DNA from: an uncultured Pirellulaceae bacterium
GTDB lineage: Bacteria; Planctomycetota; Planctomycetia; Pirellulales; Pirellulaceae
Reading direction: 5' to 3'
DNA length: 57,542 bases
Assembly (NCBI GenBank): GCA_937981585.1
Contig: CALJOA010000004.1
Location: 1-57,542 of the forward strand
In this document: piece by piece, positions 27,363 to 42,448 of the stretch
How positions within the stretch are numbered: the stretch's first letter is position 1
Layout: every line of letters begins with the position of its first letter
Made by a program: the position numbers and the translations under genes
The notes under the pieces: generated by a model
The model's database searches: none
What the model was told of the DNA's origin: nothing
The model's input: only the letters and a program-made list of their open reading frames with translations

Positions 27363-29198
27363 TTACTTTTTGCCGAACAACATATGCCGATTCGGCTTGG
27401 CCCCGGAGTCGCCATCCGCTGCTTTCTTTGACATGAGCTGTCGAGAAGTGCCAGACTGATCATCGCCCATTGGCTGACCAGCTCCCGTCTGAGCGTGTAC
27501 TTCGCCAATCAAAAACTTGACAACTGGGTCGTTTGGCGATTGCTTGAGCAACGCTTGCAGCTCAACGATCGCTTCGGGATAGCTGCCTGCCTCAACCAAA
27601 TCAAGCGACTTTGAGTAGAGCTGCGCGCTGTCCTGTGAAATAGGGTTATCCAACTCTCTCAACTCGAAAATCTCAGTTGGCGTTTTAATACCAGGCAGCG
27701 ACTTTCGAACGATCTTTCTCAAAGAGAACATCGCTGAAACTCGCTCAGCCGTTTCCCCGGAAACCAACATTGGCACCCCAACTTGTTTGGTCGCCGTTTC
27801 CAAACGACTGGCAAGATTGACAGTGCTTCCTCTGGGGCCGTACTTGATACGTGTTCGACTTCCAGAATTCCCGACGCGGGCAAGACCAGTGTGAACTCCG
27901 ATTCCAACTCGCAGATCTTCACCTAGCCGCTCGGCCCAAATCTTGTTCAGCTCGCCCATACATTGGAGCATCTCCAGCCCAGCCATGCAGGCGAACGTCG
28001 CATGTTCAAGTTGCTCGATTGGAGCATTCCAAAACGCTGAGACACCATCGCCATAGAAATCAATGATAACACCGTCGAGGTCAGTGATAATCTTGCTGAA
28101 CCTGTCCATCACATCGGCCAACAACTCGTAGGTATCCCTGTTTCCAATTTTCTCAGAGATCGTTGAGAACCTTCTCAGGTCGGCGAATAGAACCGAGACT
28201 TCACACTCTTTGGATTCAAGCAATTCAGAACAAGTCTGCAATCGCTGCGCAATTTTCGGTGAGAAGACCTGTTCCAGTAGAACCTTGGAACGCGTCGCTT
28301 CGGCTTCCGACTCAAGTCGAATCATTCCCGCCGAAAGCGAATCGGCAACGACCTGCGCGAACTGGGCTTCCAAAATTCGAATCCCACGACGGCTGTTGCG
28401 TCCGTGAAGGCTGCGGAATCCGTACACGACTGCAACGACTTCATCGTTGGTTCCCAATACTGGGCAGATGATCGCCGTGTGAAAGTCCTCGATCGACGGA
28501 TTGGCATCTACTTGTATGGCATCGTGGAACAAAGTCTCTCGCGACGCAACGACTCGTTCAATGAGGTCTTGTCGGAATCCAATCCCGTTGACTGCGTGAG
28601 GAATATGACTGGCTGCAACTTCCCATTGGTTTCCTGAGGGTATCAAGACAATCCCACCATCGAGACCACCCGGATTGAATATCGCTCTGGCAGCGACTTT
28701 GAAAAGCTCTTTACTTCCAGCGGCACTGCGTTGAAGATCGCTCAGCGTCTCCAACCAAGCCGCCAAAGTATCCGGGCCCGGCGAAACACGATCGTTGCCG
28801 TTACTCGAATCTGATTCACTTCCGAATTCACATCGATCCAACGTCGTTAGTGCAAACTCCAGCGGATGCGCGGCGCCGGTATCAAAGACCTGCACCTGCG
28901 TGTCGCCAACACCAAATGAAAGCGGCAACTTGAGACGCGTCGTTCGCCCACGATGAATCCTCGGACCTGAATCGAGCGCTAAGGAGCGCCCCTGGTTGGT
29001 CAGTTCAACGGTTCCCTCTGATCCGTCAGGATTCCACCTCAGAGAAAACTGAGAGGCCGACACCAATTCGTCTTCAATTTTAAAAAAAGACTGGATCGAA
29101 TTGTTGCCCGTCGGCTGTTCACTGCCAGCGCAAAGCGTTCCACCGGCAAAAAACTTTTGCGCGTGTTGACGTTTGTTAAAAATCGTAACCGCAAGCAT
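27363..29198 (-). CDS. FHA-GAF class III nucleotide cyclase
   Basis: 611 residues. An FHA-like domain (about 30-125, with FSLRWNPDG and NQGRSLALDSG) is followed by a GAF-like domain (about 165-310) and a class III cyclase domain (about 330-520), then a helical TPR-like tail. Metal ligands are present at Asp340 (FADLRRFS) and Asp384 (FYGDG). The transition-state residues are Asn461 and Arg465 in VNLASRLE. The base-selecting Lys before the second metal Asp is replaced by Asp (IIDFYGD), and the usual Asp before VN is replaced (PRGSTVN), so cAMP as product is not certain. It is transcribed away from the electron-transfer operon, with a 263-bp shared upstream region. Confidence 0.9.
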   Translation of the reverse strand: MLAVTIFNKRQHAQKFFAGGTLCAGSEQPTGNNSIQSFFKIEDELVSASQFSLRWNPDGSEGTVELTNQGRSLALDSGPRIHRGRTTRLKLPLSFGVGDTQVQVFDTGAAHPLEFALTTLDRCEFGSESDSSNGNDRVSPGPDTLAAWLETLSDLQRSAAGSKELFKVAARAIFNPGGLDGGIVLIPSGNQWEVAASHIPHAVNGIGFRQDLIERVVASRETLFHDAIQVDANPSIEDFHTAIICPVLGTNDEVVAVVYGFRSLHGRNSRRGIRILEAQFAQVVADSLSAGMIRLESEAEATRSKVLLEQVFSPKIAQRLQTCSELLESKECEVSVLFADLRRFSTISEKIGNRDTYELLADVMDRFSKIITDLDGVIIDFYGDGVSAFWNAPIEQLEHATFACMAGLEMLQCMGELNKIWAERLGEDLRVGIGVHTGLARVGNSGSRTRIKYGPRGSTVNLASRLETATKQVGVPMLVSGETAERVSAMFSLRKIVRKSLPGIKTPTEIFELRELDNPISQDSAQLYSKSLDLVEAGSYPEAIVELQALLKQSPNDPVVKFLIGEVHAQTGAGQPMGDDQSGTSRQLMSKKAADGDSGAKPNRHMLFGKK

Positions 29199-29461
29199 TT
29201 CGGTATTCTGGATTGGTTTTCAACGGGATATTTCAACTCTAGGTCGCCAATCAGCTCCAAACGTGCCTATTCGATCTCCTAACCCTTGTTTTTTACTGCC
29301 CAAGAGTCCGAAATTCGCCTGGGTGGCAATCGAAGCGTTTCAAGATCTGCCGAAATTGACGAGTAAAACGGTTATGAGACTTGGGGAGAAAAGTAGCTGT
29401 AAGAGACTGGTTCGATTCGATCTTAGAGTTAGTAGATTCGTCGATTCAGGCTGGAAGAGTC
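29199..29461. promoter_or_regulatory. divergent control region between the cyclase and the electron-transfer operon
   Basis: 263 bp separate the two divergent starts, so both promoters should lie here. I see no clear palindromic operator and no confident -35/-10 pair. GGAAGAG at about 29452-29458 is a good ribosome site for the ATG at 29462. Confidence 0.4.
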
Positions 29462-30763
29462 ATGGAGATCCTGCAACTTGTCACCCCATGGGTTGGTGTC
29501 GCGTTATGCGCGATGGCCTTGCTGCAGTTTGGACTTTGGTCGGCCCAATCTCTGTCGCTTTTTAATCAGAACAAAAAGCAGTTTGAGCTCTCGCAGGAAT
29601 TGTTGCGAGAACAGATCCAAACTCAGATCCAAAGCCAGATCCAAAACACGACTTCAACCAAAAAAACTTCCAAAGACGAAATTGGATCGTGGAGTGGATA
29701 CCGACCGTTTCGAGTCGCCAAACTGGTAAAAGAAACCGCCACCTGCACTTCGGTGTATCTCCAGCCCGAAGACGGAAAGCCGATCGCTTCGTTTCGTCCG
29801 GGACAACACCTGACATTCAAGTTCCAGATCCCCGGTCAATCAAAGCCGGTTGTCCGTTGCTATTCTCTCTCCGATCGACCTGGGAAGAACTACTATCGAA
29901 TCTCGGTCAAAGCAGCTGCGCCACCGAGAGACAAGCCTGACGCGGCACCTGGCAAAGCGAGCAATTTTGTTAGCAGCGTGCTGGCTCAAGGCGATCGAAT
30001 CGAAGTCAAATCGCCGTCAGGACATTTCGTTCTCGATGAGCAGTCTCAAAGACCGCTCGTGTTGCTGGCTGGTGGTATTGGGATCACACCGATGATCAGC
30101 ATGGTGAATCATTTGATTCAAACTCAATCCAAACGTCACATCTACCTGCTCTATGGTCTGAGAAACGGAAACGACCACGCGTTCAAACAACACTTAACGG
30201 AGCTTTCCCAGGACCAACCAAACTTTCTCGCCGTCAATTGCTACTCGCGGCCTGGCGCTGAAGATCAGCAGGGCGTTGACTATCACGTTAAAGGATTCGT
30301 TTCGGTCGATATTTTGAAGCAAATTCTCCCGGACAACCAGTGCCAGTTTTATATGTGTGGGCCGCCAGCGTTCATGACCTCGCTTTACCACGGTTTGATG
30401 AAATGGGGAGTCCCAAAGTCAAGCGTCTCTTACGAAGCGTTTGGGCCAGCTTCGATCGGAAAAGCGAACAAGAAAGACGCATCGCGAACCAGTGATGGCT
30501 CGGCACCAACTCCAGCCATCAACTTTTCCAGGTCGGGAACCGTTGCAAACTGGAACCCGGACTCAGAAACGCTGCTTGAGTTGGCAAAAGAAAACGACAT
30601 CTACATTGACTCGGGCTGTCGCGCGGGAAGCTGTGGAACGTGCGCTACTGGATTGATAAGCGGCAACGTCACATATCCCGAACCAGAAAACGTCCAATGC
30701 GAGCCCGGAAAGTGTCTGGTGTGTATTGCCCGGCCCGACGGACCGGTTGAACTGGACGCTTAA
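29462..30763 (+). CDS. membrane-anchored flavin/NAD(P)/2Fe-2S oxidoreductase
   Basis: The ATG at 29462 (433 residues) has GGAAGAG upstream and is preferred over a TTG at 29381. Residues about 8-30 form a membrane anchor, followed by a Gln-rich helical linker. The FAD domain contains RCYSLSD, the pyridine-nucleotide domain LLAGGIGITPMISM and YMCGPPAFM. The C-terminal ferredoxin has CRAGSCGTC and a distant Cys, the plant-type 2Fe-2S pattern. This FAD-NAD-2Fe-2S order is that of Hcr/HmpX-type reductases. It should pass electrons from NAD(P)H to a partner at the inner face of the membrane, and it is the first gene of a five-gene operon rich in cytochromes. Confidence 0.9.
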   Translation: MEILQLVTPWVGVALCAMALLQFGLWSAQSLSLFNQNKKQFELSQELLREQIQTQIQSQIQNTTSTKKTSKDEIGSWSGYRPFRVAKLVKETATCTSVYLQPEDGKPIASFRPGQHLTFKFQIPGQSKPVVRCYSLSDRPGKNYYRISVKAAAPPRDKPDAAPGKASNFVSSVLAQGDRIEVKSPSGHFVLDEQSQRPLVLLAGGIGITPMISMVNHLIQTQSKRHIYLLYGLRNGNDHAFKQHLTELSQDQPNFLAVNCYSRPGAEDQQGVDYHVKGFVSVDILKQILPDNQCQFYMCGPPAFMTSLYHGLMKWGVPKSSVSYEAFGPASIGKANKKDASRTSDGSAPTPAINFSRSGTVANWNPDSETLLELAKENDIYIDSGCRAGSCGTCATGLISGNVTYPEPENVQCEPGKCLVCIARPDGPVELDA

Positions 30764-30787: not shown

Positions 30788-31825
30788 ATGAGAAAGAAGC
30801 AAACACGACAACTTTCAACCAATCGGATCGCAATCCGGTTCACTGTCGCCTCGTTGGTTTGCGCGTGCGTATGCATGATCTCGGCTCAGTCGTTTGCCCA
30901 GAACGTAAAATGCGACCCCACCAAAGTCATGACTTACAAGGCCTGTGCGAAATGCCATGCCAACGAAATCTCAGTGTGGAGACAAACCCCACACTTTCGC
31001 ACCTTTGAGGAACTAGGCAGACGTCCGGAGGCCAAACAGATCTGCTCCAACCTTGGACTGCGCTCGGTCAAGCGAAGCGACGTTTGCATCGATTGTCACT
31101 TTACCGTTCAGGAGACAGGCGGAAAAGCAAAACCGGTTTCGGGAATTTCATGCGAGTCATGCCACGGTGCATCTGAAGACTGGCTTACCGCTCACAATGA
31201 TTACGGTGGACCAACCGAAACAGCCGAAACGGAGTCACCCGAGCATGCGATCGAGCGACTTGCAACTGCTACAGAATATGGAATGAGGAACACTCGAAAT
31301 CTGTACGCCATTGCCAGCAGCTGCCTCAACTGCCACACCGTTCCCAATGAAGAACTGGTCAATGTCGGAGGACACACCGCGGGAACCGAAGACTTCGAAT
31401 TGGTCAGTTGGTCTCAAGGCAAAGTCCGACACAACTTTCTGCGAACCGATGGCCAATCCAACGCCAGATCCGATTCGAATCGACTGAGAGTGATGTACGT
31501 CGTTGGTTTGATCGCCGATCTGGAGCATAGCACTCGCGCGACAGCCAACGCGACAACCAAATCGACTTACGGAACCAAAGTCGCCAATCGCGCAGCTCGA
31601 ACTGCGGTCAAGCTGTACGAAGTTCAGCAAAAAATACAAAGCCCCGACGTTCAGGCTGCTCTTGAAGCATTCGCCGGAGCGGAACTCAAGATCAACAACT
31701 ACGATGCGTTGACTTCGATCGCTGATCAGATCCAATCCGCAGGCGAGCAATTCTCCGATTCGGTTGATGGCAGTCAGTTGGAGGCCGTCGACGCCATGCT
31801 CCCCGACCCAAGTCAGTACAAGTAA
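30788..31825 (+). CDS. tetraheme cytochrome c, c554-like
   Basis: 345 residues with a signal peptide (about 1-38, ending SAQSFAQ). Four CxxCH heme sites are at residues 53-57 (CAKCH), 100-104 (CIDCH), 122-126 (CESCH) and 179-183 (CLNCH). The spacing and the 'ACAKCHANEISVW' start recall the cytochrome c554 family, which shuttles electrons in the periplasm. The C-terminal ~130 residues are helical and heme-free. It lies 24 bp after the reductase gene. Confidence 0.92.
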   Translation: MRKKQTRQLSTNRIAIRFTVASLVCACVCMISAQSFAQNVKCDPTKVMTYKACAKCHANEISVWRQTPHFRTFEELGRRPEAKQICSNLGLRSVKRSDVCIDCHFTVQETGGKAKPVSGISCESCHGASEDWLTAHNDYGGPTETAETESPEHAIERLATATEYGMRNTRNLYAIASSCLNCHTVPNEELVNVGGHTAGTEDFELVSWSQGKVRHNFLRTDGQSNARSDSNRLRVMYVVGLIADLEHSTRATANATTKSTYGTKVANRAARTAVKLYEVQQKIQSPDVQAALEAFAGAELKINNYDALTSIADQIQSAGEQFSDSVDGSQLEAVDAMLPDPSQYK

Positions 31826-31931: not shown

Positions 31932-33668
31932 TTGAACGCCATTCATTCAAAAATCGCACGTCCTCAGCGCTGGGGCGAACCATTGGATCCCGATATGTCG
32001 GACCAAGAGGTCGCGGCGCTGCAAAAGATCGAGCCATTCGCGTCGATGACTCCGGACGCGTTCAGCAAAGCGATTCCGCTGCATGGTGTGCTTCAGAACG
32101 ATTGTCGTTTGCTGGATCTGAAGAAGGGCGACATCATCGTTCGCGAAGGCGACTATGGGAGCAGCGCGTTTTTGATTCTTGAAGGCGAAGCGCTCGTCTC
32201 GTTGCAAAGTCTTCCAGCCGAAGTGCTCGGGCGAGACACGGGTAGAAAGAAAGGCTGGTTGGCTGCCGTTTCCCAGTTGTGGAGAAACTCAACCGGAGTC
32301 GAAACACGAAACTACGACGCCAACCGCAGCGAAGTCTCAAAGATCCAGGACGTCGGATCGCGAGAAGACGAAACCGGCACGCACATTTTCCTTCACGACA
32401 TTCCAGCCGTGATCCCGGTCGGAAAATCGGTCGCGCTTGGAGCTGGCGAAATCTTCGGTGAAATTTCGGCTTTGACTCGCACACCCCGCTCTGCAACCGT
32501 TGTCGCCAACGCCCCGACACGATTGTTGGAGATCCGCTGGCAAGGCTTTCGTGAACTGATGAAACGCCACGAAGCGTTGCGGACGCACGTCGAGAACCTC
32601 TACCGCGAAAACAGCTTGCGAGCGCACCTACGAGAAATCCCGGTTTTGAAGGGGCTTTCCCACGATACGATCGAAAAGCTCTCGGAGCTAACGATCTTCG
32701 AATCGTTTGGGGATTTTCAGTGGAACCGGAAATTCACCTCGACCAAAAAGAAAGACATCCTCGATCGAATTCTTTCTGAGCCAACGATCGCCCAACAAGG
32801 TGAATATGTCGACGGATTGATCCTGATTCGAAACGGATTCGCGCGACTGAGCCGTGAGCATGGCGATGGCCATCAAACGATTGCCTACCTTGGCAAAGGC
32901 GAAACGTTCGGTTTGCGGGAACTGGTTCACAATTGGCAAACCGGCGAGCAACGCCCGTGGCTACTCAGCCTCCGCGCCGTCGGCTATGTCGACATCCTAC
33001 GCATCCCGACACTGGCGTTTGAATCGTTGGTCCTGCCCAACATTCCAAAACCCAAGTTGCCGGCACCGCTTCCCTCACTGGATCCGAAGCAGCGGCAAAA
33101 ACATCAGCGACGCGCCGAACGTCAGGAGTCGATGGACAAGGGACTTCTCGAATTTCTCGTGGAAAAGCGTTTCATCAACGGAACGCAAACGATGATGATC
33201 GACCTCGATCGTTGTACCAGGTGCGACGACTGCGTCCGAGCGTGTGCTTCGACCCACGACAACAATCCGCGATTCAAACGGCAGGGTGACACTTACGATC
33301 ACTGGATGGTGACCAATGCGTGTATGCACTGTCTTGACCCCGTTTGCATGATCGGTTGCCCAACAGGTGCGATCGCACGCGATCAAGAATCTGGCAGTGT
33401 AACGATCAACGACAAAACCTGCATCGGCTGTGCGACCTGTTCCAACAGTTGCCCGTACAACAACATTCAGATGGTCGAGATCAACGACGACAGCGGACTG
33501 CCAATCGTCGATATCGATACGGGAAAGCCGATCAACAAAGCGACAAAGTGCGATCTCTGCGTCGACCAACTTGGCGGTCCGGCCTGCCAACGAGCCTGTC
33601 CCCACGACGCCCTGGTTCGCATCGACCTCACCGCGCCTGACGACATCACCATCTGGAGTAAGCGTTAG
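31932..33668 (+). CDS. protein with two cyclic-nucleotide-binding domains fused to four 4Fe-4S clusters
   Basis: 578 residues from a TTG at 31932; an ATG at 31998 is possible but would remove sequence before the first domain. The first CNB domain (about 35-205) holds a long insertion (95-155) and a complete phosphate-binding cassette, FGEISALTRTPRSAT, with Gly176-Glu177 and Arg186-Ser187 as in CAP and PKA. The second CNB (about 235-370) lacks the Glu/Arg pair. The C-terminal ~155 residues carry four Cys clusters (C428-438, C464-476, C497-507, C540-556), as in PhsB/NrfC/HybA-type ferredoxins. There is no signal peptide, so it acts in the cytoplasm. The operon context suggests it relays electrons, possibly gated by a cyclic nucleotide. 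Confidence 0.9.
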   Translation: MNAIHSKIARPQRWGEPLDPDMSDQEVAALQKIEPFASMTPDAFSKAIPLHGVLQNDCRLLDLKKGDIIVREGDYGSSAFLILEGEALVSLQSLPAEVLGRDTGRKKGWLAAVSQLWRNSTGVETRNYDANRSEVSKIQDVGSREDETGTHIFLHDIPAVIPVGKSVALGAGEIFGEISALTRTPRSATVVANAPTRLLEIRWQGFRELMKRHEALRTHVENLYRENSLRAHLREIPVLKGLSHDTIEKLSELTIFESFGDFQWNRKFTSTKKKDILDRILSEPTIAQQGEYVDGLILIRNGFARLSREHGDGHQTIAYLGKGETFGLRELVHNWQTGEQRPWLLSLRAVGYVDILRIPTLAFESLVLPNIPKPKLPAPLPSLDPKQRQKHQRRAERQESMDKGLLEFLVEKRFINGTQTMMIDLDRCTRCDDCVRACASTHDNNPRFKRQGDTYDHWMVTNACMHCLDPVCMIGCPTGAIARDQESGSVTINDKTCIGCATCSNSCPYNNIQMVEINDDSGLPIVDIDTGKPINKATKCDLCVDQLGGPACQRACPHDALVRIDLTAPDDITIWSKR

Positions 33669-33700: not shown

Positions 33701-34555
33701 ATGACCCAACCAAACCTGAAATCCAAACCTCGACGATTCCGTTTTTCGAAACGCCGAATCCGCAACTCAATTATCACACTGGTGATCATTGCGATTCTGT
33801 CGGTTATCGTTTATGCGCAAAATCAATCTCTGATTCACAGTAGCTTTACGACTGGCTATCTGTTGATGACCTGTATCGTATTTCTGGCTGCGTTCAATCT
33901 GCGCAAGAAGATCACGTTTTTACCAGCAATCGGCTCGGCGAAATTCTGGATGCAGCTCCACATTTACGTGGGACTGGCGACCTTTGCGATATTCGGATTC
34001 CATATCGCATGGCATGTTCCAAATGGAGCGTTCGAATTGTTACTTGCCGGGCTGTACTTAACTGTCGCGCTGAGTGGCGTTTATGGCTTGTATGCCACCA
34101 GGATTTTCCCGGCCAAACTGACTGGACTCAACGAAGAACCGATCTTTGAACGGATTCCATTTTTCCAACAACGGCTCGCAGTCCAGGCACGCAAGCTGGT
34201 TCTGCAAACCTGCGAAGCCACCGACGTTCTGGCAAACTTTTACTCCAATCGCCTGGCCGCTTTTTTTGAACGACCACGCTCGTTGGCTTATCTTGTCCGA
34301 CCGACTGGTCGCGTGCGCCGCCAATTGATTACCGAGATCGAAGATCTGGATCGCTTCCTCGCCGAAGACCAACGTCAGGTCAGCCGCGAATTAACGCAGC
34401 TTGTCAAACAACGTGACGATCTCGACTATCATTACGCGTTACAAGGCCGATTGAAAGTCTGGTTGTTCATCCACATCGGGCTGACTTACAGCCTTTTGAT
34501 CGTTGCGGTCCTGCACATGATTCTGGCTCACGCGTTCGATGGAGGGCTGCAATGA
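33701..34555 (+). CDS. b-type cytochrome-like membrane protein
   Basis: 284 residues with about five membrane helices (near 22-41, 48-64, 82-101, 109-131 and 250-275) and a soluble helical loop at about 135-245. Two helices carry matching histidine pairs 14 residues apart: His87/His101 in LHIYVGL...FGFH and His258/His272 in FIHIGLT...VLH. This pattern is that of diheme b cytochromes such as the ferric-reductase/YedZ and b561 groups. It would let electrons cross the inner membrane. Its TGA overlaps the ATG of the decaheme gene (34552-34555), so the two are translated together. Confidence 0.8.
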   Translation: MTQPNLKSKPRRFRFSKRRIRNSIITLVIIAILSVIVYAQNQSLIHSSFTTGYLLMTCIVFLAAFNLRKKITFLPAIGSAKFWMQLHIYVGLATFAIFGFHIAWHVPNGAFELLLAGLYLTVALSGVYGLYATRIFPAKLTGLNEEPIFERIPFFQQRLAVQARKLVLQTCEATDVLANFYSNRLAAFFERPRSLAYLVRPTGRVRRQLITEIEDLDRFLAEDQRQVSRELTQLVKQRDDLDYHYALQGRLKVWLFIHIGLTYSLLIVAVLHMILAHAFDGGLQ

Positions 34556-36969
34556 TTCAGAAACTCGGCAGCTCTGTCAGTGAACTTTCCCAAGACGATC
34601 TTGACGATCGGCTTTCGGGCAACTCGTACCATCGACCCAACGACAAATGGGTTGAGGTTCCCGTTCAAACGTTGTCCCAGGACGGAGAAACAAAAACGAT
34701 CACGGTCCGGCGGCGCAGCCTCCGCTCAAAACGCAGAATCTTTACGCTTTCATGCACCGCGTTCACGGCGGGGCTGCTGATAATCCTGATGTCGTCGCCG
34801 TACTCCAACGAATTCCTTGTCCCTGGTGGGCTTTCATCCAATCACGGGCAGATCCTGGCGGGGCACGGGGCCGATCGATGTGCCGCTTGTCACGGAGCAG
34901 CCGACGGTTCACTTGCAAGCTGGATTTCTTCAACCATCTCGATCGGAAAAGCCGAAGGGCTCAGCCAATCCGAATTGTGCATGAAGTGTCACGACAAATC
35001 GTTTGCCAACTCAACCGCACTCAATCCGCACAACATCGCCCCTGACGAGTTGGCCAAAGTAACTCAGAAGTATCACCAAGCCTCTTTCGACGCCGGAATG
35101 GTATTCTCGCCTCCAGTTCACGGAGGAGAAATCGCGTGCAGCGCCTGTCATCGCGAACATCATGGTTCGGATAACGATCTCACGTTGATGACTGACCGAC
35201 AATGTCAAACCTGTCACCAGAATTCATTCCATAGTTTTGAAACCGACCACCCTGAGTTCGAAAATTACCCGCTCAAGCGACGTTCTCGAATCGCGTTTGA
35301 CCACTCGTCACACGCCGCAAGGCACTTTCCTGGCAAGAACATAGAGTTCAACTGCAGCCAATGCCACATCGACGATTCAATGCAAAACGTCAAGGTCACC
35401 GCCTCGTTTGAGCAGGCATGTGCCAGTTGCCACAATCAACAGATTGTCGAAAGCGGTAGTGAAGGACTAGCCGTCGTTGCGCTGCCGATGATTGACACCA
35501 ACGCTGTCGAAGACGCAAAGCTCAACCTCGGAACCTGGCCGTTGGCCGCGACTGGAGATTTTGACGGCAAGCTCCCTCCGATCATGCGATTGCTGCTGAC
35601 CGCCGATGAAAAGGCGGCATCCGTGTTTGCCAAGTACGGTTCCGATTTTGAGTTTTCGGATATTGATCCAGAAGAAGTCGATCAAGTTGCCGACGCGGTC
35701 GAATTGGCTTGGGCCATCAAACGCCTGTTGTACGACCTTGCGCTCAACGGCCCGCGAACGGTTCGATCTCGAATTGAGTCGGTTTTGGACCTGCAGATTG
35801 CAGACGATGAGCTGAAACGCCTAGTCGACAACTTGGACGAACAGGTATTTCAAAACGCCGTTCGAACCTGGCTTCCCAATTTGACAGTCGAAGTGGCCGC
35901 CAACCGGTACGGCGCCTCGGATTCCGCGCTGGCCGAAATCCGAAATGCCACACCAGACTTGTCCAATGAAGTCTCCGACTCAGACGATCGCCTGGTCAAA
36001 AACGATGCTTGGTGGTGGCCATCCGAAGAGGTCTTGGCGCGGATAGCGCCTGTTCAAGAAGACGAGCTGCTGGCGCCCAATCCGTTGGCGGGCCTGATGG
36101 AATCTTCAGACACGATAGTTCCCTTGACGACAGGGGACGGACCGGTGGATGGCTTAAATGATCAAGCAGGAACTGAAACCAATCCTGCCCAAGACTCTCG
36201 CGGTCCGCTTGAGCTGAACAATCTCAACACTGACGTCTCGGACGATCCAGCGCTGCTCGCCGTCAATCCGCTTTCGGTCGGCGAAGGAAACACGATCGGA
36301 GTCTCGGCGCCGCCCAGAGCACACTCCGCTGGATCCAATGCGAACTCTTCGGTTGTGCCGAAACATGTTGCGACGAAACAACCAAACAATATTCTCCCTG
36401 ACAAGAACAAATTCCCAGCCACGGGGCAGCCTCCGCTGGTGGTTCCAAGCGGCTGGTTTCGAAATGATCAGAGTTTTCAGATCAGTTACCGCCCAAGTGG
36501 TCATTCGGATGATTGTCTTGAATCATGGATCGAGCTGGCTGCCAAAATCGAAAACGCTAACGCGCGACCAGAAACCAAAAGCCTTTTTGACAAGACGCTT
36601 TCGATGGCTGGAATCGGACTTTGCCGAACCTGCCACACTGTTGACCAGCTTCCCGAGGGCAACTTCAATGTCAATTGGAAATCCGAGTACCGTGATCTGT
36701 CCAAACGATCGTTCACGGAGTTTTCGCATGGTCCACACTTGATCCAGCCGAAGTTGCAGGACTGCTCGCACTGCCATCAGCTTGATCTGGAATTGGGTAA
36801 TGCCGAATCGTTCGTCAGTCTCATTCCAGATGCCGACGTTAGCAACACAAGCAACTTCTTGCCGATAACAAAATCCAACTGCACCAATTGTCATCAGCCT
36901 AAACAGGCCGGAAGCGGATGTACGCAGTGCCACAACTACCATGTCGGGACTAAAGTGACAAAGGAATAA
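34552..36969 (+). CDS. membrane-anchored decaheme cytochrome c
   Basis: 805 residues. About 62 N-terminal residues are cytoplasmic by the positive-inside rule (RRRSLRSKRR), followed by one membrane helix (about 63-83) and a periplasmic part. Ten CxxCH sites start at residues 110, 143, 196, 218, 268, 290, 691, 738, 777 and 790. They form two groups, six near the N-terminus and four near the C-terminus, separated by about 395 heme-free residues that include an acidic helical portion and a low-complexity linker. It probably accepts electrons from the coupled b-type cytochrome and passes them to periplasmic carriers. It is the last gene of the operon. Confidence 0.92.
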   Translation: MIQKLGSSVSELSQDDLDDRLSGNSYHRPNDKWVEVPVQTLSQDGETKTITVRRRSLRSKRRIFTLSCTAFTAGLLIILMSSPYSNEFLVPGGLSSNHGQILAGHGADRCAACHGAADGSLASWISSTISIGKAEGLSQSELCMKCHDKSFANSTALNPHNIAPDELAKVTQKYHQASFDAGMVFSPPVHGGEIACSACHREHHGSDNDLTLMTDRQCQTCHQNSFHSFETDHPEFENYPLKRRSRIAFDHSSHAARHFPGKNIEFNCSQCHIDDSMQNVKVTASFEQACASCHNQQIVESGSEGLAVVALPMIDTNAVEDAKLNLGTWPLAATGDFDGKLPPIMRLLLTADEKAASVFAKYGSDFEFSDIDPEEVDQVADAVELAWAIKRLLYDLALNGPRTVRSRIESVLDLQIADDELKRLVDNLDEQVFQNAVRTWLPNLTVEVAANRYGASDSALAEIRNATPDLSNEVSDSDDRLVKNDAWWWPSEEVLARIAPVQEDELLAPNPLAGLMESSDTIVPLTTGDGPVDGLNDQAGTETNPAQDSRGPLELNNLNTDVSDDPALLAVNPLSVGEGNTIGVSAPPRAHSAGSNANSSVVPKHVATKQPNNILPDKNKFPATGQPPLVVPSGWFRNDQSFQISYRPSGHSDDCLESWIELAAKIENANARPETKSLFDKTLSMAGIGLCRTCHTVDQLPEGNFNVNWKSEYRDLSKRSFTEFSHGPHLIQPKLQDCSHCHQLDLELGNAESFVSLIPDADVSNTSNFLPITKSNCTNCHQPKQAGSGCTQCHNYHVGTKVTKE

Positions 36970-37178: not shown

Positions 37179-39953
37179 TCAATATTTGTGTCGCAGCTCG
37201 AACCTCAGCCCGCGCACGTCGTCTTGGCCATCCATGAAACCGTACATTCCATCGGTACGGAAAATGATCGCGTTGGTCAGCGGCAACTGATAGCGAAATC
37301 CCAACCCGAACTGAGGGCCAGGTGCGTTGCGAGTTGCATCGTCGCCCATCGTTCCAACGAACGCTGTTTCCAAAACTAGTTGCTGACTAAAATCGTCAGC
37401 AATAATATTGAGTCCCACGGCGCCACCAAACGTATCATTGGCGGTTGCATCGAGTGTTGGGAAGCCCGTGATTCCGTCTGTTTCAAACAGGATTCCTGTG
37501 TTTCTCAATACGTCGCCTGCCTGACCGGCTCGCGCTGCCGATTGAGGTCGATCGAAGCCTGCGAAGAAGTTCGCGTAGGGAACGAAAGTCGATGGAGCTG
37601 AGGTGATCAATGAGTTTTCCGACAACAGCAAAACGCCGTCGGCAGTGTTTTCGACTTGAGCCGAGTTTTGCCCAGCGTTGACGATCACGCGAGTCGAATT
37701 GGAAATCAGGCTTCCATAACGCCTTGTGAAACCAATGCCGATGTTGTGGTAGCTTCGGTCGTCAAACGTACGATCGTCGAGGAAAGCGTAGTCAATTTCG
37801 AAATAGCCATTCATCGCTTCGATGAACGTCAGCATGCCGTACATTCGAGCGGCGCTATCGTCACCGGGAAATGCGTCGCTGGTGATCTTGTCGTAGCCAG
37901 CGAAGAACGTAATGTCCATGTTTGAGATGTTGAACCGGGGACTGTTGCGAGCCGGAATGGTCGCGGCAACTCCGAGAATCGCGTCTTCCATCCAAACACC
38001 GTTTTGAACCAGCATCGGAATTACACCCACGGCAAACGGCAGATCGAATGGAAGCGTTTTGTCGATGAACCCGCCCGTGATTGCGCCGAGGTCGCCCTCG
38101 AAGTAGCCAAAGTCGAACTGGGCGTCAAACTCTCCCACGAATTCGTCTTCGTCGAACAGGTATCGCGTATTGTTGACGCCGTCGTCGAGCGGAGACCAGA
38201 ACGCGTGAAAACGTTCGGTGCTGGTAAGTTTCAAATCGAAATCGAGATTAACTTCTGCAGCAAGCTGCGAAGTATATTCACCGTTGGCAGAACTGGAAGC
38301 AATCGCAGTTCGAACGTCTCCATAAACTAGAAACTGCGGAGTGACGTTGTTGTGTTTGCCGAACCAGGAATAACCGGGGCTTAGTTGCCCAAGCTGATAC
38401 CATGGTCGCCCCAGCTCCACCAACGGTCGTTGATTCGAGTGGAGCGTCTTGCCCTCGTAAACCTGCATTTGTGCATAGGGATCATAAGGCGTGTACGGAT
38501 CGATGGGATCCGGGGAGAAGTTGTGGGGAGACGATTCGACTTGGAACGCTCGTCGATCGGTCAGCGGTGTGTCGTCTTTCCAGTGATCACCAATCTGCGG
38601 TTGCCCAGCGAGCACGTAGTTGTCTGCACCGATCAAGGACCGAGGCGTTTTGTCTTTCGCTTTCTTGGCGGGCGCCGGTTTCTTGCCTGGTTCTTTCGGG
38701 GTTGGTTCTCTGGCAGGTTGGGCAGTTTTTGACTTGGATGCATTGGCAACACGAAACTCGTTGTCGAGCAGTGTGTTGCTTGGTTGGAAGACAGGTTTTG
38801 TCTTTGTATCCGAGCCCGGGTTTTCAGCGACCCGCGTTACCGTCTCGTCCGGCTGTTGGGTAAAGCCTGTATCGTTTTGTTGTTTGGCGATTTCTTTGGC
38901 GATTTCTTTACCGGCTGGCTCGGCATCGGCGGGCGAGCTCTGAGGCAGGGTTGCTTCGTCCTCAACCTTGGTGATGACGTCCGGACCCGATTCGACCGGA
39001 TCATTTAGATGGAGTACTTTCTTAAGCCGTTCCGGAATTTCAACTTCGGCTGCGTCAGTGACAAGAGTCGGCGGTGCGTTGTCAGCCTCCATCGCGGTCT
39101 GTTGCACCAACGGGTACCGAGGCGGGTTTGGCGACGAGGATTCGACTGTAAATTCAGTTTCATTCTCAACCTTGGTGATGACTTCAGAAGGCGATTCAAT
39201 CGGATCATCTAAATGGAGTATTTTCTTAAGCCGTTCTGGAATTTGGACTTCGGCCGCGTCAGCGACAAGAATTGGCGCGGCGTTGTCAGCCTCCATCACG
39301 GTCTGTTGTAACAACGGGTAGCGCGGCGATGTTGGCGATGAGGCTTCGATTTCAAATCCAGTAATTGCTGCTGTTGGAGCCGGTGGTAGTTGAGCCGGGA
39401 GCTCGATTGGCTTGATCTCCAGCTCGGCGACATTGTCCAAAGTCGGGGTTGCTGCAACATCCGGTTGGATCGTGATCGGTTGTTTTGTTTCTGATTCCCA
39501 AACTTGTTGATCGCGTTTGGGTGCGGGGTTTGGTTGAGGTTCAAGCGAATCAGTTGCGGGCGCCCAAGGATCCGCCAGCCTCCTGGCCGCCGTATCAAGT
39601 TTCGACATCCGCTCGGGAGCATCGAGTTCGAGAGGTTTCTTGGATTCCGACGTCCACTCAACCCGATATTGATGGCTTGCCTGCTGGACGGCGAACTCGT
39701 CATTGGGATTGCGACTGTTTGACAGTTCTAAATGCTGAGCTGCTCGTCGAGCGATCAGATGGTCGTGATCGTTCTTGAGTTTGATTGGTTGGGGTTGATT
39801 GATTCCTGATCGCGCAGACTCAGCGTCCATCATTGGCTGGCCCAGCGCTATGGGTTCAGCGTGTTTGATGCTGCGCAGATTCAAAACCGCAACGCTGGCC
39901 GTACAGACCAGCGCGAGAATTATGAAATTTCTCGTTGTCTTGAAATCAAACAT
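37179..39953 (-). CDS. predicted outer-membrane beta-barrel with long proline-rich N-terminal region
   Basis: 924 residues. An N-terminal hydrophobic segment (about 9-27) is a signal or anchor. Residues 30-500 are Pro/Glu/Lys-rich and probably disordered, with a tandem 68-residue duplication at 205-340. From about 515 the sequence turns into alternating polar/aromatic strands (for example FLVYGDVRTAI and FRYQLPLTNAIIFRTDGMY) and ends RFELRHKY with a terminal aromatic residue, the usual sign of an outer-membrane barrel. The ATG lies 47 bp after the pentaheme cytochrome gene, so the two form an operon. A porin partner for that cytochrome is an inference; a general porin is the alternative. Confidence 0.72.
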   Translation of the reverse strand: MFDFKTTRNFIILALVCTASVAVLNLRSIKHAEPIALGQPMMDAESARSGINQPQPIKLKNDHDHLIARRAAQHLELSNSRNPNDEFAVQQASHQYRVEWTSESKKPLELDAPERMSKLDTAARRLADPWAPATDSLEPQPNPAPKRDQQVWESETKQPITIQPDVAATPTLDNVAELEIKPIELPAQLPPAPTAAITGFEIEASSPTSPRYPLLQQTVMEADNAAPILVADAAEVQIPERLKKILHLDDPIESPSEVITKVENETEFTVESSSPNPPRYPLVQQTAMEADNAPPTLVTDAAEVEIPERLKKVLHLNDPVESGPDVITKVEDEATLPQSSPADAEPAGKEIAKEIAKQQNDTGFTQQPDETVTRVAENPGSDTKTKPVFQPSNTLLDNEFRVANASKSKTAQPAREPTPKEPGKKPAPAKKAKDKTPRSLIGADNYVLAGQPQIGDHWKDDTPLTDRRAFQVESSPHNFSPDPIDPYTPYDPYAQMQVYEGKTLHSNQRPLVELGRPWYQLGQLSPGYSWFGKHNNVTPQFLVYGDVRTAIASSSANGEYTSQLAAEVNLDFDLKLTSTERFHAFWSPLDDGVNNTRYLFDEDEFVGEFDAQFDFGYFEGDLGAITGGFIDKTLPFDLPFAVGVIPMLVQNGVWMEDAILGVAATIPARNSPRFNISNMDITFFAGYDKITSDAFPGDDSAARMYGMLTFIEAMNGYFEIDYAFLDDRTFDDRSYHNIGIGFTRRYGSLISNSTRVIVNAGQNSAQVENTADGVLLLSENSLITSAPSTFVPYANFFAGFDRPQSAARAGQAGDVLRNTGILFETDGITGFPTLDATANDTFGGAVGLNIIADDFSQQLVLETAFVGTMGDDATRNAPGPQFGLGFRYQLPLTNAIIFRTDGMYGFMDGQDDVRGLRFELRHKY
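38934..39341 (-). repeat. tandem 204-bp (68-codon) duplication inside the barrel gene
   Basis: Two adjacent in-frame units encode residues about 205-272 and 273-340. Both contain RYPL-QQT, MEADNA, IPERLKK and VITKVE in the same order. The DNA of the two units is also clearly similar, which suggests a fairly recent duplication in the disordered region. Confidence 0.88.
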
Positions 39954-40000
39954 CAGGGGAGTCAGTTGAAACGTTTTTCTTTACTGTTTTTCCCTTTAAA

Positions 40001-42448
40001 TTAGTGGACTTCGAATACTACGGTGCTTGAATGAAAATCTGCGATGTACTCGTTCATAATGCGTTCCATTTCCGGCGTCGCGTCGCAGAAACGCATAAAG
40101 TAAATCGGTTCGGCACGGCTGCGCATCCTGACTGACAACTGGTAGGTGCCAGGCTGTTGCATTAATCGCGAAGGCACGACGTACTTGACGTTTCTGGATC
40201 CCAAAGCCGGGATCGAGTGGCCTTCCATCCGAATGAATGGCGGATGGTTGAGAACGGAGACAGGGACCTGGGCGGGACGTAGGAATGGCAGTTGGTCAAA
40301 ATCAAAGTTGATTGGCAAGTACATTTCCCGGTCCGTTCCTTTAACGTTGGTTGTCAGGAACTTGGTTTGCAAGTTCATCAACTGTGTATCCAAAGGAACC
40401 CGACGCGCCAGAACGTCAAGCGAATGGTTGTCGCAAAGATCGCCGTTGGAGTCGAGATAACCGGATTCCCAGATAAGCTGTCCGCTTGGTGCTCGTAGCG
40501 CGACATTCATCCACATTTGTGGTTGAGCGCCGAGTGAACCGCTGGGCATGTTGTGGCCTGGGCTAGTGTTGGTCAAGCAGTATCGGAACCGAAGTGGTTC
40601 TCCCGGTGTCGGGTCTCCGGTGAAATAGGGGCCGTCAAGTTTTGAGCCGTTCTCGAGAACCTGTCTTCGCAGGTCTTTCTTGTAGTCCAGCTTTTTCAGA
40701 TTCTCGTCGATGATCTCGCGGGCTTCGTAGCGATCGTCCGCTTCCTGCCAAGGGTGCGGGAACTCGTAGTGAAACTTTCCGTCTGCCAATGCGTCTTCGA
40801 ATTCATCGGTTCCCCAGCCGGCACGCCAGTCGAACGTCAGCCACTCATTGAATTTCCAGCGGTCGGCATCTAGGTTGTCGGGGAATGTTCCCGGATGGGC
40901 GATTGAATACCCCGGTCCGAAGAACATATGGTTGGAGTGCCTTCTCTCTGGATTGAGGACTTTGCCGTTCACAACAGCCGCCGGTCCATAGCTGTATCCG
41001 GCGTCAACTCCGGGGACTTTTCCCATGTGGCAATCCTGACAGTTGACTCCGTCTTTGCAGGCTGGAGAAGCCCGGTACTGGTCCCAGACGACTTCGAGTT
41101 TGATGCCTGGTTTCACAGCGACCTGATGGCAAGACATGCAAAACGAAGACTCGGAAAGCTCTTCGAATTGGATTGCCCGTTTGTGAATTGGAAGTCCCGG
41201 TCCTTTTTCGTTGCGGTTGGTTTTCGTTTTGAAGAACGAACTGTACTTGTTGGCGATTTCGACAGATGAACCATCGGCCGAACCGTAGACTGGCGCGTAA
41301 ATATCGCCCGGCTCAATTCGGCGTTCGCCGTCTGCTTTGGTGTACGGCGTTTTGACTCGGTGGCACGCGACACAGGTGACGCCTTCTTTGAAAACTCGCG
41401 GTCCGTCCCAAATGGCTTGGTCACGCCTGAGTCCCATCGTTGTTGCAACTGGAGCATGGCATCGCAAACAGAAATAGCCCAGCGTTCCCTGGGCCAAGCG
41501 ATTGATGGTGTTCTCAAACTTGTGGAACATTGGCGAAACTGACGCGTAGGCATGGCTTGACGTTGACCACTCTTCGTAGATCTGCTCGTGGCAGGTGGCG
41601 CACTCTTTGGCTGAAGGAAAGGCGCTACGTGAGTAGATCTCAAAGTGCGGGTCCTCGCCGTCCTCGGAGTCATCGTTGTCAGAACTTTTTTGGCGGGCCG
41701 AAGCGCTGGCATGCGGATTGGGCATCGTTGACGGAGTTGGGTTCTTGGCCACACGTTCCAAGACCGATTGATAGGTGCGATCGTGGCTCGTTGAAATTGG
41801 TGTGGCTTGGTTGGCAGCGTTCCCAGCGTCGTAGCTGAAACCAGCTTGGGTTGCATCGAATTGTGTTTGCAGTTGGGCTCGGTTGTCCTTGGGTACGACG
41901 TTGGGCCAAATGAAATTCGTCGGCGGTGTTGGCGCATTGGAGATCGCCCGCAGGCTTTGCCGGGTTTTGTTTCGTGGTTGCTGAAACTGATGCTGTTGAA
42001 ACTGTCGTTGATGTTGTAAGAACTGTTGCTGGTGTTTGAGCTGCTGGTGAATCGAATGGGCGCCGCTTAAATCCAGTCCCGGCAATTCGCCGGTACACAT
42101 CGGCGGCAGCTGTGAAAGCGTCTCAACATCCTCTTCGGTCAGGCCAGCTACCAATTGGCTTGCCGACGGCTTGGTCGGCTGAGAGCTGACGGCTGGAAGA
42201 TCACGGATACTGTTGAGCTGCTCAGACGTATAGCTCGCCGTGGCGACCGTTCCCATGCTGTCCAAGGGAATCGCTTGATTGGCTTGATTTCCATCGTTGG
42301 TTTTTACGGTGTGAATATTGGCGTCTAGCCGCGGCGCAGTCGTCTCAGGTGCGTTTGGTAGAGCGCCTGGATCGACAATGAAGTTGCAAGTTAGCAACGA
42401 AAGAATGATCAAGAACGCGATCGGAAATATTTTCTTAACTAAAACCAT
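40001..42448 (-). CDS. pentaheme cytochrome c with a C-terminal non-heme domain
   Basis: 815 residues. An N-terminal hydrophobic segment (about 7-24, ending LLTC) is a signal or anchor; the cysteine hints at a lipoprotein, but T at -1 is not canonical. A long linker holds a Gln/His-rich tract at about 134-158. Five CxxCH sites start at residues 283, 327, 359, 437 and 470, in a c554/hydroxylamine-oxidoreductase-like layout. The last ~200 residues have a GHNMPSG motif and look like a beta-rich non-heme domain. With the downstream barrel it may form an outer-membrane electron path; an enzymatic role is also possible. Confidence 0.9.
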   Translation of the reverse strand: MVLVKKIFPIAFLIILSLLTCNFIVDPGALPNAPETTAPRLDANIHTVKTNDGNQANQAIPLDSMGTVATASYTSEQLNSIRDLPAVSSQPTKPSASQLVAGLTEEDVETLSQLPPMCTGELPGLDLSGAHSIHQQLKHQQQFLQHQRQFQQHQFQQPRNKTRQSLRAISNAPTPPTNFIWPNVVPKDNRAQLQTQFDATQAGFSYDAGNAANQATPISTSHDRTYQSVLERVAKNPTPSTMPNPHASASARQKSSDNDDSEDGEDPHFEIYSRSAFPSAKECATCHEQIYEEWSTSSHAYASVSPMFHKFENTINRLAQGTLGYFCLRCHAPVATTMGLRRDQAIWDGPRVFKEGVTCVACHRVKTPYTKADGERRIEPGDIYAPVYGSADGSSVEIANKYSSFFKTKTNRNEKGPGLPIHKRAIQFEELSESSFCMSCHQVAVKPGIKLEVVWDQYRASPACKDGVNCQDCHMGKVPGVDAGYSYGPAAVVNGKVLNPERRHSNHMFFGPGYSIAHPGTFPDNLDADRWKFNEWLTFDWRAGWGTDEFEDALADGKFHYEFPHPWQEADDRYEAREIIDENLKKLDYKKDLRRQVLENGSKLDGPYFTGDPTPGEPLRFRYCLTNTSPGHNMPSGSLGAQPQMWMNVALRAPSGQLIWESGYLDSNGDLCDNHSLDVLARRVPLDTQLMNLQTKFLTTNVKGTDREMYLPINFDFDQLPFLRPAQVPVSVLNHPPFIRMEGHSIPALGSRNVKYVVPSRLMQQPGTYQLSVRMRSRAEPIYFMRFCDATPEMERIMNEYIADFHSSTVVFEVH

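Follow-up and report, generated by a model that had tools for sequence, protein, structure and literature searches.

A conserved fusion of tandem cyclic-nucleotide-binding domains with a four-cluster ferredoxin at multiheme cytochrome loci: a candidate second-messenger-gated electron carrier

The window analyzed here, a stretch of 57,542 nucleotides from an uncultured Pirellulaceae bacterium (contig CALJOA010000004.1 of assembly GCA_937981585.1), encodes a protein in which two cyclic-nucleotide-binding (CNB) domains are followed by a ferredoxin domain for four [4Fe-4S] clusters; it is referred to below as the CNB-ferredoxin. The first CNB domain (CNB1) retains a canonical phosphate-binding cassette (PBC), which is as conserved among the homologues as the cysteine residues of the clusters. 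The gene is located beside genes for a reductase, a membrane protein and multiheme cytochromes c, and in one planctomycete lineage it is accompanied by a divergently transcribed nucleotide cyclase. We consider it moderately likely that electrons enter a transmembrane conduit on the cytoplasmic side through the CNB-ferredoxin and that this subunit serves as a carrier gated by a second messenger, where the gating of electron flow by a nucleotide is suggested by the domain fusion together with the gene context. The gene and its domains are as follows.

31932..33668, plus strand: CNB-CNB-4x[4Fe-4S] protein of 578 amino acids (open reading frame with TTG start; Pfam; AlphaFold)
32085..32657, plus strand: CNB1 (residues 52-242), split by an insert
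32205..32426, plus strand: insert within CNB1, approximately residues 92-165 (helices 96-99, 109-117 and 129-137 in the model)
32457..32498, plus strand: canonical PBC, residues 176-189, GEISALTRTPRSAT (Gly176, Glu177, Arg186)
32658..33041, plus strand: second CNB domain (CNB2), residues 243-370, Glu/Arg pair absent
33180..33626, plus strand: ferredoxin domain with 16 conserved Cys for four [4Fe-4S] clusters, NrfC/DmsB/HycB kind, residues 417-565

The TTG start at position 31932 is supported by an R-P-x-R-W motif, which the homologues keep at about the same N-terminal place. In the Pfam search, the 578-residue chain contained two stretches matching PF00027 (E = 2e-28), and more than one 4Fe-4S model exceeded its cut-off in the same chain. 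The AlphaFold model has a mean pLDDT of 86.3 and a pTM of 0.81. In this predicted structure, CNB1 shows beta-barrel strands and the PBC helix (residues 177-182) and matches 3cl1_A. The 50 best rows of the Foldseek search against PDB all belong to regulatory subunits of PKA and PKG with tandem CNB domains, and in several of these entries cyclic AMP (cAMP) or cyclic GMP (cGMP) is bound. The 16 Cys lie within residues 428-556 and form four ferredoxin-type groups, that is, four predicted [4Fe-4S] sites. The initial annotation, which was made from the sequence of the window, had assigned Gly176-Glu177 and Arg186-Ser187 to CNB1 and four 4Fe-4S clusters to the same chain, and had described CNB2 as lacking the Glu/Arg pair. 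The cassette residues were found at exactly those positions, each of the 16 Cys is kept in 107 to 109 of 109 homologues, and CNB2 reads FGLRELVHNW at the corresponding site. No helix-turn-helix (HTH) family was detected in the CNB-ferredoxin at E ≤ 0.01 with Pfam, and the C-terminus is the 4Fe-4S domain. Among the 25 best of 52 NCBIfam rows, no equivalog cut-off was reached (for example, 64 bits against 1003). The stretch of the CNB1 insert comprises 75 residues in the window protein, with a median of 72 over the 109 homologues, and it is shorter in the distant relatives shown (54-62 residues in three and 10-13 in four).

The conservation of the cassette was determined on a set of 109 sequences, consisting of the window protein, 80 named homologues and 28 planctomycete homologues, which leans to close relatives. 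The 80 named loci are the best-scoring ones from a contig scan that returned at least 459 relatives; since the scan was seeded in the Fe-S part, the cassette was not directly selected for, though the 80 are the best scorers. Gly176 and Glu177 are present in 109 of 109 sequences, Arg186 in 108 and Gly76 in 107. Four of the rows duplicate others, and after their removal the values are 105/105 for Glu177, 104/105 for Arg186 and 103/105 for Gly76. Glu177, Arg186 and Gly76 are thus among the most conserved positions of CNB1, for which the mean frequency of the top residue is 0.54. Gly76 occupies the position of the beta2-beta3 Gly, for which Kannan et al. 2007 (PMC2246266) report co-evolution with the Arg that binds the phosphate. 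The sole exception at Arg186 is L049, from a record titled Nitrospinae, in which Arg186 is replaced by Gln and Gly76 by Asp; this joint change is in line with the reported Arg-Gly coupling. The initial annotation had named a general loss of the Glu/Arg pair among homologues as an outcome that would speak against its proposal. The opposite was seen in this set, and in the wider planctomycete family described below both residues are kept in 56 of 63 rows. The conservation supports the view that CNB1 probably binds a cyclic nucleotide.

The residue following Arg186 is Thr in 78, Ser in 19, Val in 5, Ala in 5 and Pro in 2 of the 109 homologues. In Table 1 of PMC2246266, the PBC motif is PRTAT or PRSAT in two PKG families and PRAAT in PKA. 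By this comparison, cGMP is possible as the ligand. At the Glu position of CNB2, Glu occurs in only 2 of the 109 homologues (L030 and L031). Some distant homologues, among them L115 and L149, carry a canonical cassette in each of the two CNB domains. Because these distant homologues carry both cassettes, the second cyclic-nucleotide site was probably lost in the branch of the window protein.

The cyclase gene and the residue relevant to its product are located as follows.

27363..29198, minus strand: class III nucleotide cyclase, divergent from the operon, with the catalytic domain at about 27693-28202 (PF00211, E = 5.3e-16)
28059..28061, minus strand: Asp380 of the cyclase, occupying the site of the substrate-specifying Lys (Asp in all 17 divergent cyclases of this kind)

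As described in the initial annotation, a class III cyclase is transcribed away from the start of the operon, whose first gene begins at 29381. The PF00211 match exceeds the cut-off of the model, and both metal-Asp motifs of class III catalytic domains are present in the cyclase alignment. At the substrate-Lys position, all 17 divergent cyclases have Asp, which is acidic, yet not the usual Glu; among the other aligned cyclases, Lys is found in L044, L077, L086 and L103 and His in L064 and L078. The nearest solved domain to the catalytic domain is 2w01, the guanylyl cyclase Cya2, which the E488K exchange is reported to turn into an adenylyl cyclase (PMC5995499), and guanylyl cyclases are described as having Glu for Lys with a variable second residue (PMC4215837). 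The replacement of the adenylyl-cyclase Lys by Asp in all 17 cyclases makes cGMP the better guess; the enzyme appears guanylyl-cyclase-like, and cGMP is ranked above cAMP as the messenger with low certainty, a choice that the initial annotation had left open. No CHASE2 sensor turned up in the Pfam scan of the cyclase, which was not a search aimed at CHASE2. In the window assembly (3.5 Mb, 80.2% complete), the cyclase of the locus is the only PF00211 gene found, and the only other PF00027 protein found is an HTH regulator of the CRP type (L033).

Cyclase reading frames are present in 19 of the 80 named loci. In 11 of the 80, all from planctomycete-titled records, a divergent upstream cyclase shares the N-terminal part of the window cyclase. 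The divergent cyclase was found in 11 of 16 counted planctomycete genomes, where approximately 0.2 would be expected from the density of cyclases; the 16 were picked, after the neighbourhood survey, from 20 planctomycete-titled loci, leaving out L048 and L098 (short upstream flank), L077 (a cyclase of another kind on the same strand) and L099 (none). At 20 further planctomycete loci, which include L173 from the same genome as L039 and the short L189 and L190, the divergent cyclase occupies this place in 5, and other cyclase reading frames occur in L188 and L189. In 4 of these 5 loci, the reductase (FNR) gene is absent from the locus, and the genomes have two PF00211 genes each. A lack of co-occurrence with the cyclase was another outcome that the initial annotation had named as speaking against its proposal. 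Here the answer is mixed: the two co-occur in planctomycetes, and no such cyclase was seen in the loci of other phyla, many of them with short flanks.

The relation between cassette and cyclase was also examined at the genome level. Among 294 planctomycete genomes, 63 have a homologue (E ≤ 1e-20) and 208 have PF00211. PF00211 is present in 28 of 28 genomes with a close homologue compared to 180 of 266 others (Fisher 4.4e-5, kinship ignored), where the line for a close homologue, E ≤ 1e-78, was drawn after a gap in the E-values had been seen. The wider family was evaluated as 63 rows from 62 genomes (G023 twice), leaving out G216, whose match has no CNB part; one copy was used for multi-copy genomes, and the other fetched copies (L117, L152, L153 and L154) keep Arg. 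Seven of the 63 rows have lost Arg, to Gln, Ser, Ala or Glu, and they represent 7 of the 8 genomes in this set that are without PF00211 (Fisher 1.4e-8); five of the seven genomes are at least 90% complete. In the phylum of G326 (Lacunisphaera), the gene is present in 14 of 288 genomes and PF00211 in 13 of these 14. The exception is G448 (L169/L171), in which one copy is frame-split near residue 233 and carries R186W and G76E, and the other copy keeps Arg. Of the 80 named genomes, 34 were covered by PF00211 counts as well. A distant branch of homologues from planctomycete genomes without PF00211 (L133-L137, L139 and L140) keeps Glu and has lost both Arg and the beta2-beta3 Gly; its members may bind a different ligand or none.

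The putative partners of the CNB-ferredoxin are encoded around it.

29381..30763, plus strand: FAD/NAD(P) reductase with a C-terminal 2Fe-2S domain and one N-terminal hydrophobic segment (PF00175, PF00111, PF00970)
30788..31825, plus strand: tetraheme cytochrome of the c554 type with a hydrophobic N-terminus (PF13435, E = 4.8e-15; four CXXCH)
33701..34555, plus strand: membrane protein, predicted diheme b-type (four hydrophobic segments in a simple scan)
34552..36969, plus strand: decaheme cytochrome c (ten CXXCH; PF14522), with a single hydrophobic segment at the N-terminus
37179..39953, minus strand: large exported protein, possibly an outer-membrane barrel, convergent to the operon (relatives near the cluster in many loci)
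40001..42448, minus strand: pentaheme cytochrome c of the c554 family (five CXXCH; PF13435)

The reductase, tetraheme cytochrome, CNB-ferredoxin, membrane protein and decaheme cytochrome genes form a run on the same strand. The first four are separated by 24, 106 and 32 bp, and there is a 4-bp overlap between the membrane protein and decaheme cytochrome genes. Relatives of these four partners recur beside the gene in the 80 named loci, and those of the pentaheme cytochrome and the exported protein are often near the cluster as well. Many of these loci have short flanks, where a missing neighbour proves nothing. The order varies, in some loci the reductase gene is several genes away or on the opposite strand, and the cluster is incomplete on short contigs. 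By record title, the loci belong to Planctomycetota, Verrucomicrobia, Alpha- and Gammaproteobacteria, Nitrospinae and SAR324, and carriers include the named strains Lacipirellula limnantheis I41, Bythopirellula polymerisocia Pla144, Hwanghaeella grinnelliae Gri0909 and Ferruginivarius sediminum WD2A32. The records titled Klebsiella pneumoniae (L069) and Akkermansia muciniphila (L082) are metagenome bins; the gene order of L069 is like that of the Verrucomicrobia-titled loci, so that its title may be wrong.

In the membrane protein, His87, His101, His258 and His272 are invariant in 67 of the 67 sequences left after rows with stops or outside 240-360 residues were dropped. Its model is all-helical (pLDDT 93.5), with His87 and His101 in the helix of residues 80-101 and His258 and His272 in that of residues 222-283, and the four His are read as the ligands of two predicted bis-His b hemes. 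For the exported protein, no Pfam match was obtained at E ≤ 0.01; together with the pentaheme cytochrome (37179-42448, convergent to the operon), which like it has relatives close to the cluster in many loci from other phyla, it is possibly an outer-membrane porin-cytochrome pair.

Some members of the family carry additional domains. An FHA domain is N-terminal in the CNB-ferredoxin of L004 and in mid-chain between the CNB domains in L029, comparable additional segments are seen in L005 and L025, and two of the scanned divergent cyclases (L035 and L178) have an FHA domain at the N-terminus. Their presence is a hint that the switch may also receive input from phosphorylation. The distant homologue L031 has added N-terminal 2Fe-2S and 4Fe-4S parts (Fer2_4 and Fer4_21), of the type that occurs in NADH dehydrogenase subunit G.

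In the proposed mechanism, the conduit would consist of the reductase, the CNB-ferredoxin, the diheme b-type membrane protein and the multiheme cytochromes c. A 3',5'-cyclic nucleotide would bind to the canonical cassette of CNB1, and the helices following the barrel would move as in the regulatory domains of PKA and PKG. This movement would be relayed through CNB2, which is probably ligand-free, to the four-cluster ferredoxin domain, which would thereby be enabled to dock to the reductase or the b-type membrane protein, or be kept from doing so. In one planctomycete lineage, the messenger would come from the divergent cyclase at the locus, with cGMP likelier than cAMP; elsewhere it would come from other cyclases of the cell. 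The simplest path for the electrons, whose direction we infer, would lead from NAD(P)H to the reductase, the CNB-ferredoxin, the b-type protein and then the multiheme cytochromes c.

Several observations weigh against such a nucleotide-gated conduit. Outside the planctomycete-titled records, none of the remaining 60 named loci, many of which are short-flanked, showed the homologous divergent cyclase. L049 lacks the Arg and the Gly, yet its genome has 14 PF00211 genes; conversely, L041 keeps the cassette with no PF00211 in its assembly, and so does G212 (77% complete), in which no PF00211 was found. On the tree, the association of Arg loss with the missing cyclase is a single loss, with 1 independent pair, and therefore it illustrates the link rather than proves it. 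In 2 of the 17 divergent cyclases, the transition-state Asn is replaced by Val. For the b-type membrane protein, PDB offered no clear relative by fold.

The first alternative is that CNB1 binds a cyclic nucleotide and thereby affects the assembly, localisation or stability of the complex, while the ferredoxin conducts regardless. FHA domains, which often serve phospho-dependent assembly, are present in some family members (L004 and L029), as would suit this explanation. In the CNB-ferredoxin, however, the CNB pair is fused straight to the electron carrier, and the cassette is as conserved as the cluster Cys, and we regard a role limited to assembly, localisation or stability as unlikely.

The second alternative concerns the cyclase, which may stand beside the gene by chance or in a purely regulatory role, with its product acting through the CRP-type regulator L033 alone; this would be compatible with ligand binding by CNB1. 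It is consistent with the CRP-type HTH protein being encoded elsewhere in the genome and with the homologous divergent cyclase not having been seen in loci of other phyla. The excess of the divergent cyclase over expectation (11 of 16 against 0.2) argues against it, as does the persistence of the cyclase at loci from which the FNR gene is gone. In addition, CNB1 has [ST]-A-[TS] after the Arg, and the CRP-type cassette, FGELALLGNERRDEY, does not. In our estimation, a merely coincidental or transcriptional cyclase is rather improbable.

The last alternative is that the pocket, canonical in its residues, accommodates another ligand, such as NAD(P)(H), a nucleoside or another phosphate, or is a structural relic. 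The CNB domains of kinetoplastid PKA have switched to purine nucleosides (PMC10959531), HoxI, a CNB subunit of a redox complex, is thought to bind NADP (PMC12319191), which also counts against gating by a cyclic nucleotide, and one distant branch here is without the Arg. In the kinetoplastid switch, however, Arg is replaced and Glu is found at the position of PKA Ala202, whereas 108 of the 109 homologues here keep Arg, and 105 of the 109 have Ala or Ser at residue 179, which corresponds to Ala202. Furthermore, a nearly invariant Arg together with the Gly marks binders of cyclic phosphates according to PMC2246266. A different ligand or a relic site is given a small probability.

Compared to known systems, the CNB-ferredoxin is like PKA-R and PKG in the tandem CNB domains, the nine-residue spacing from Glu to Arg in the PBC, the beta2-beta3 Gly and the best Foldseek matches in PDB. 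Unlike them, it has no kinase domain, a lost CNB2 site in place of the two competent sites of the PKA-R/PKG type, a long insert in CNB1 and C-terminal [4Fe-4S] clusters. As in HoxI, which is encoded with a soluble [NiFe] hydrogenase, a CNB domain belongs to an electron-transfer complex; by the available description (PMC12319191), HoxI is a separate protein, whereas the window protein is a ferredoxin fusion. No hydrogenase gene was found in the neighbourhood (Pfam, 8 proteins). Bact_Pyrredox, family 13 in Table 1 of PMC2246266, is likewise a bacterial tandem CNB fused to a redox module. Its module is an N-terminal pyridine nucleotide-disulphide oxidoreductase, while that of the window protein is a C-terminal ferredoxin; such an N-terminal domain is absent from the CNB-ferredoxin (Pfam), and the reductase is encoded by a separate gene and belongs to another family. 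The cyclase has Cya2 of Synechocystis (2w01) as its best PDB match and shares with it an acidic residue for the adenylyl-cyclase Lys (PMC5995499); unlike Cya2, it has Asp, not Glu.

The 16-Cys part matches HycB3, HybA, DmsB, NrfC and FdnH, including PDB entries. These are electron carriers beside a membrane partner or an enzyme, and to our knowledge these four-cluster Fe-S subunits carry no CNB domain. Like the CRP/FNR factors, the window protein has a CNB fold with a Glu/Arg cassette (we take these to be the cassette residues of CRP as well); unlike them, it has no detected DNA-binding domain, and the other CNB protein of the genome has the HTH. Kannan et al. list 30 CNB families, none of which is named for ferredoxin, and the word ferredoxin is absent from the main text (PMC2246266). 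In the available text of PMC1858693, both domains appear only in a list for cyanobacterial transcription factors and not in one protein. PMC12419801, considered as a description of such a protein, is by its available text unrelated. Among the open-access papers listed, judged mostly by titles and the beginnings of abstracts, no description of a CNB-4Fe-4S protein was found. CNB-regulated effectors are already known; an electron carrier of this build would be a new form of this known type.

In a more specific form, put forward only tentatively, the conduit would be gated by cGMP: a dedicated guanylyl-type cyclase and the CNB-ferredoxin as entry subunit would form a two-gene switch of NAD(P)H-driven electron export through the diheme membrane protein and the multiheme cytochromes, acting on a scale of seconds, in a family present in several phyla. 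A single locus encodes the ferredoxin together with its probable partners and, in one lineage, also the cyclase, and the idea is therefore testable with few proteins. Bacterial cyclic nucleotides are known mainly through transcription factors, and few direct effectors are known. If the proposal is true, a small signalling molecule would switch electron flow directly and not via gene expression, and a conserved carrier with an intact cassette would directly turn respiration or the outward flow of electrons on and off.
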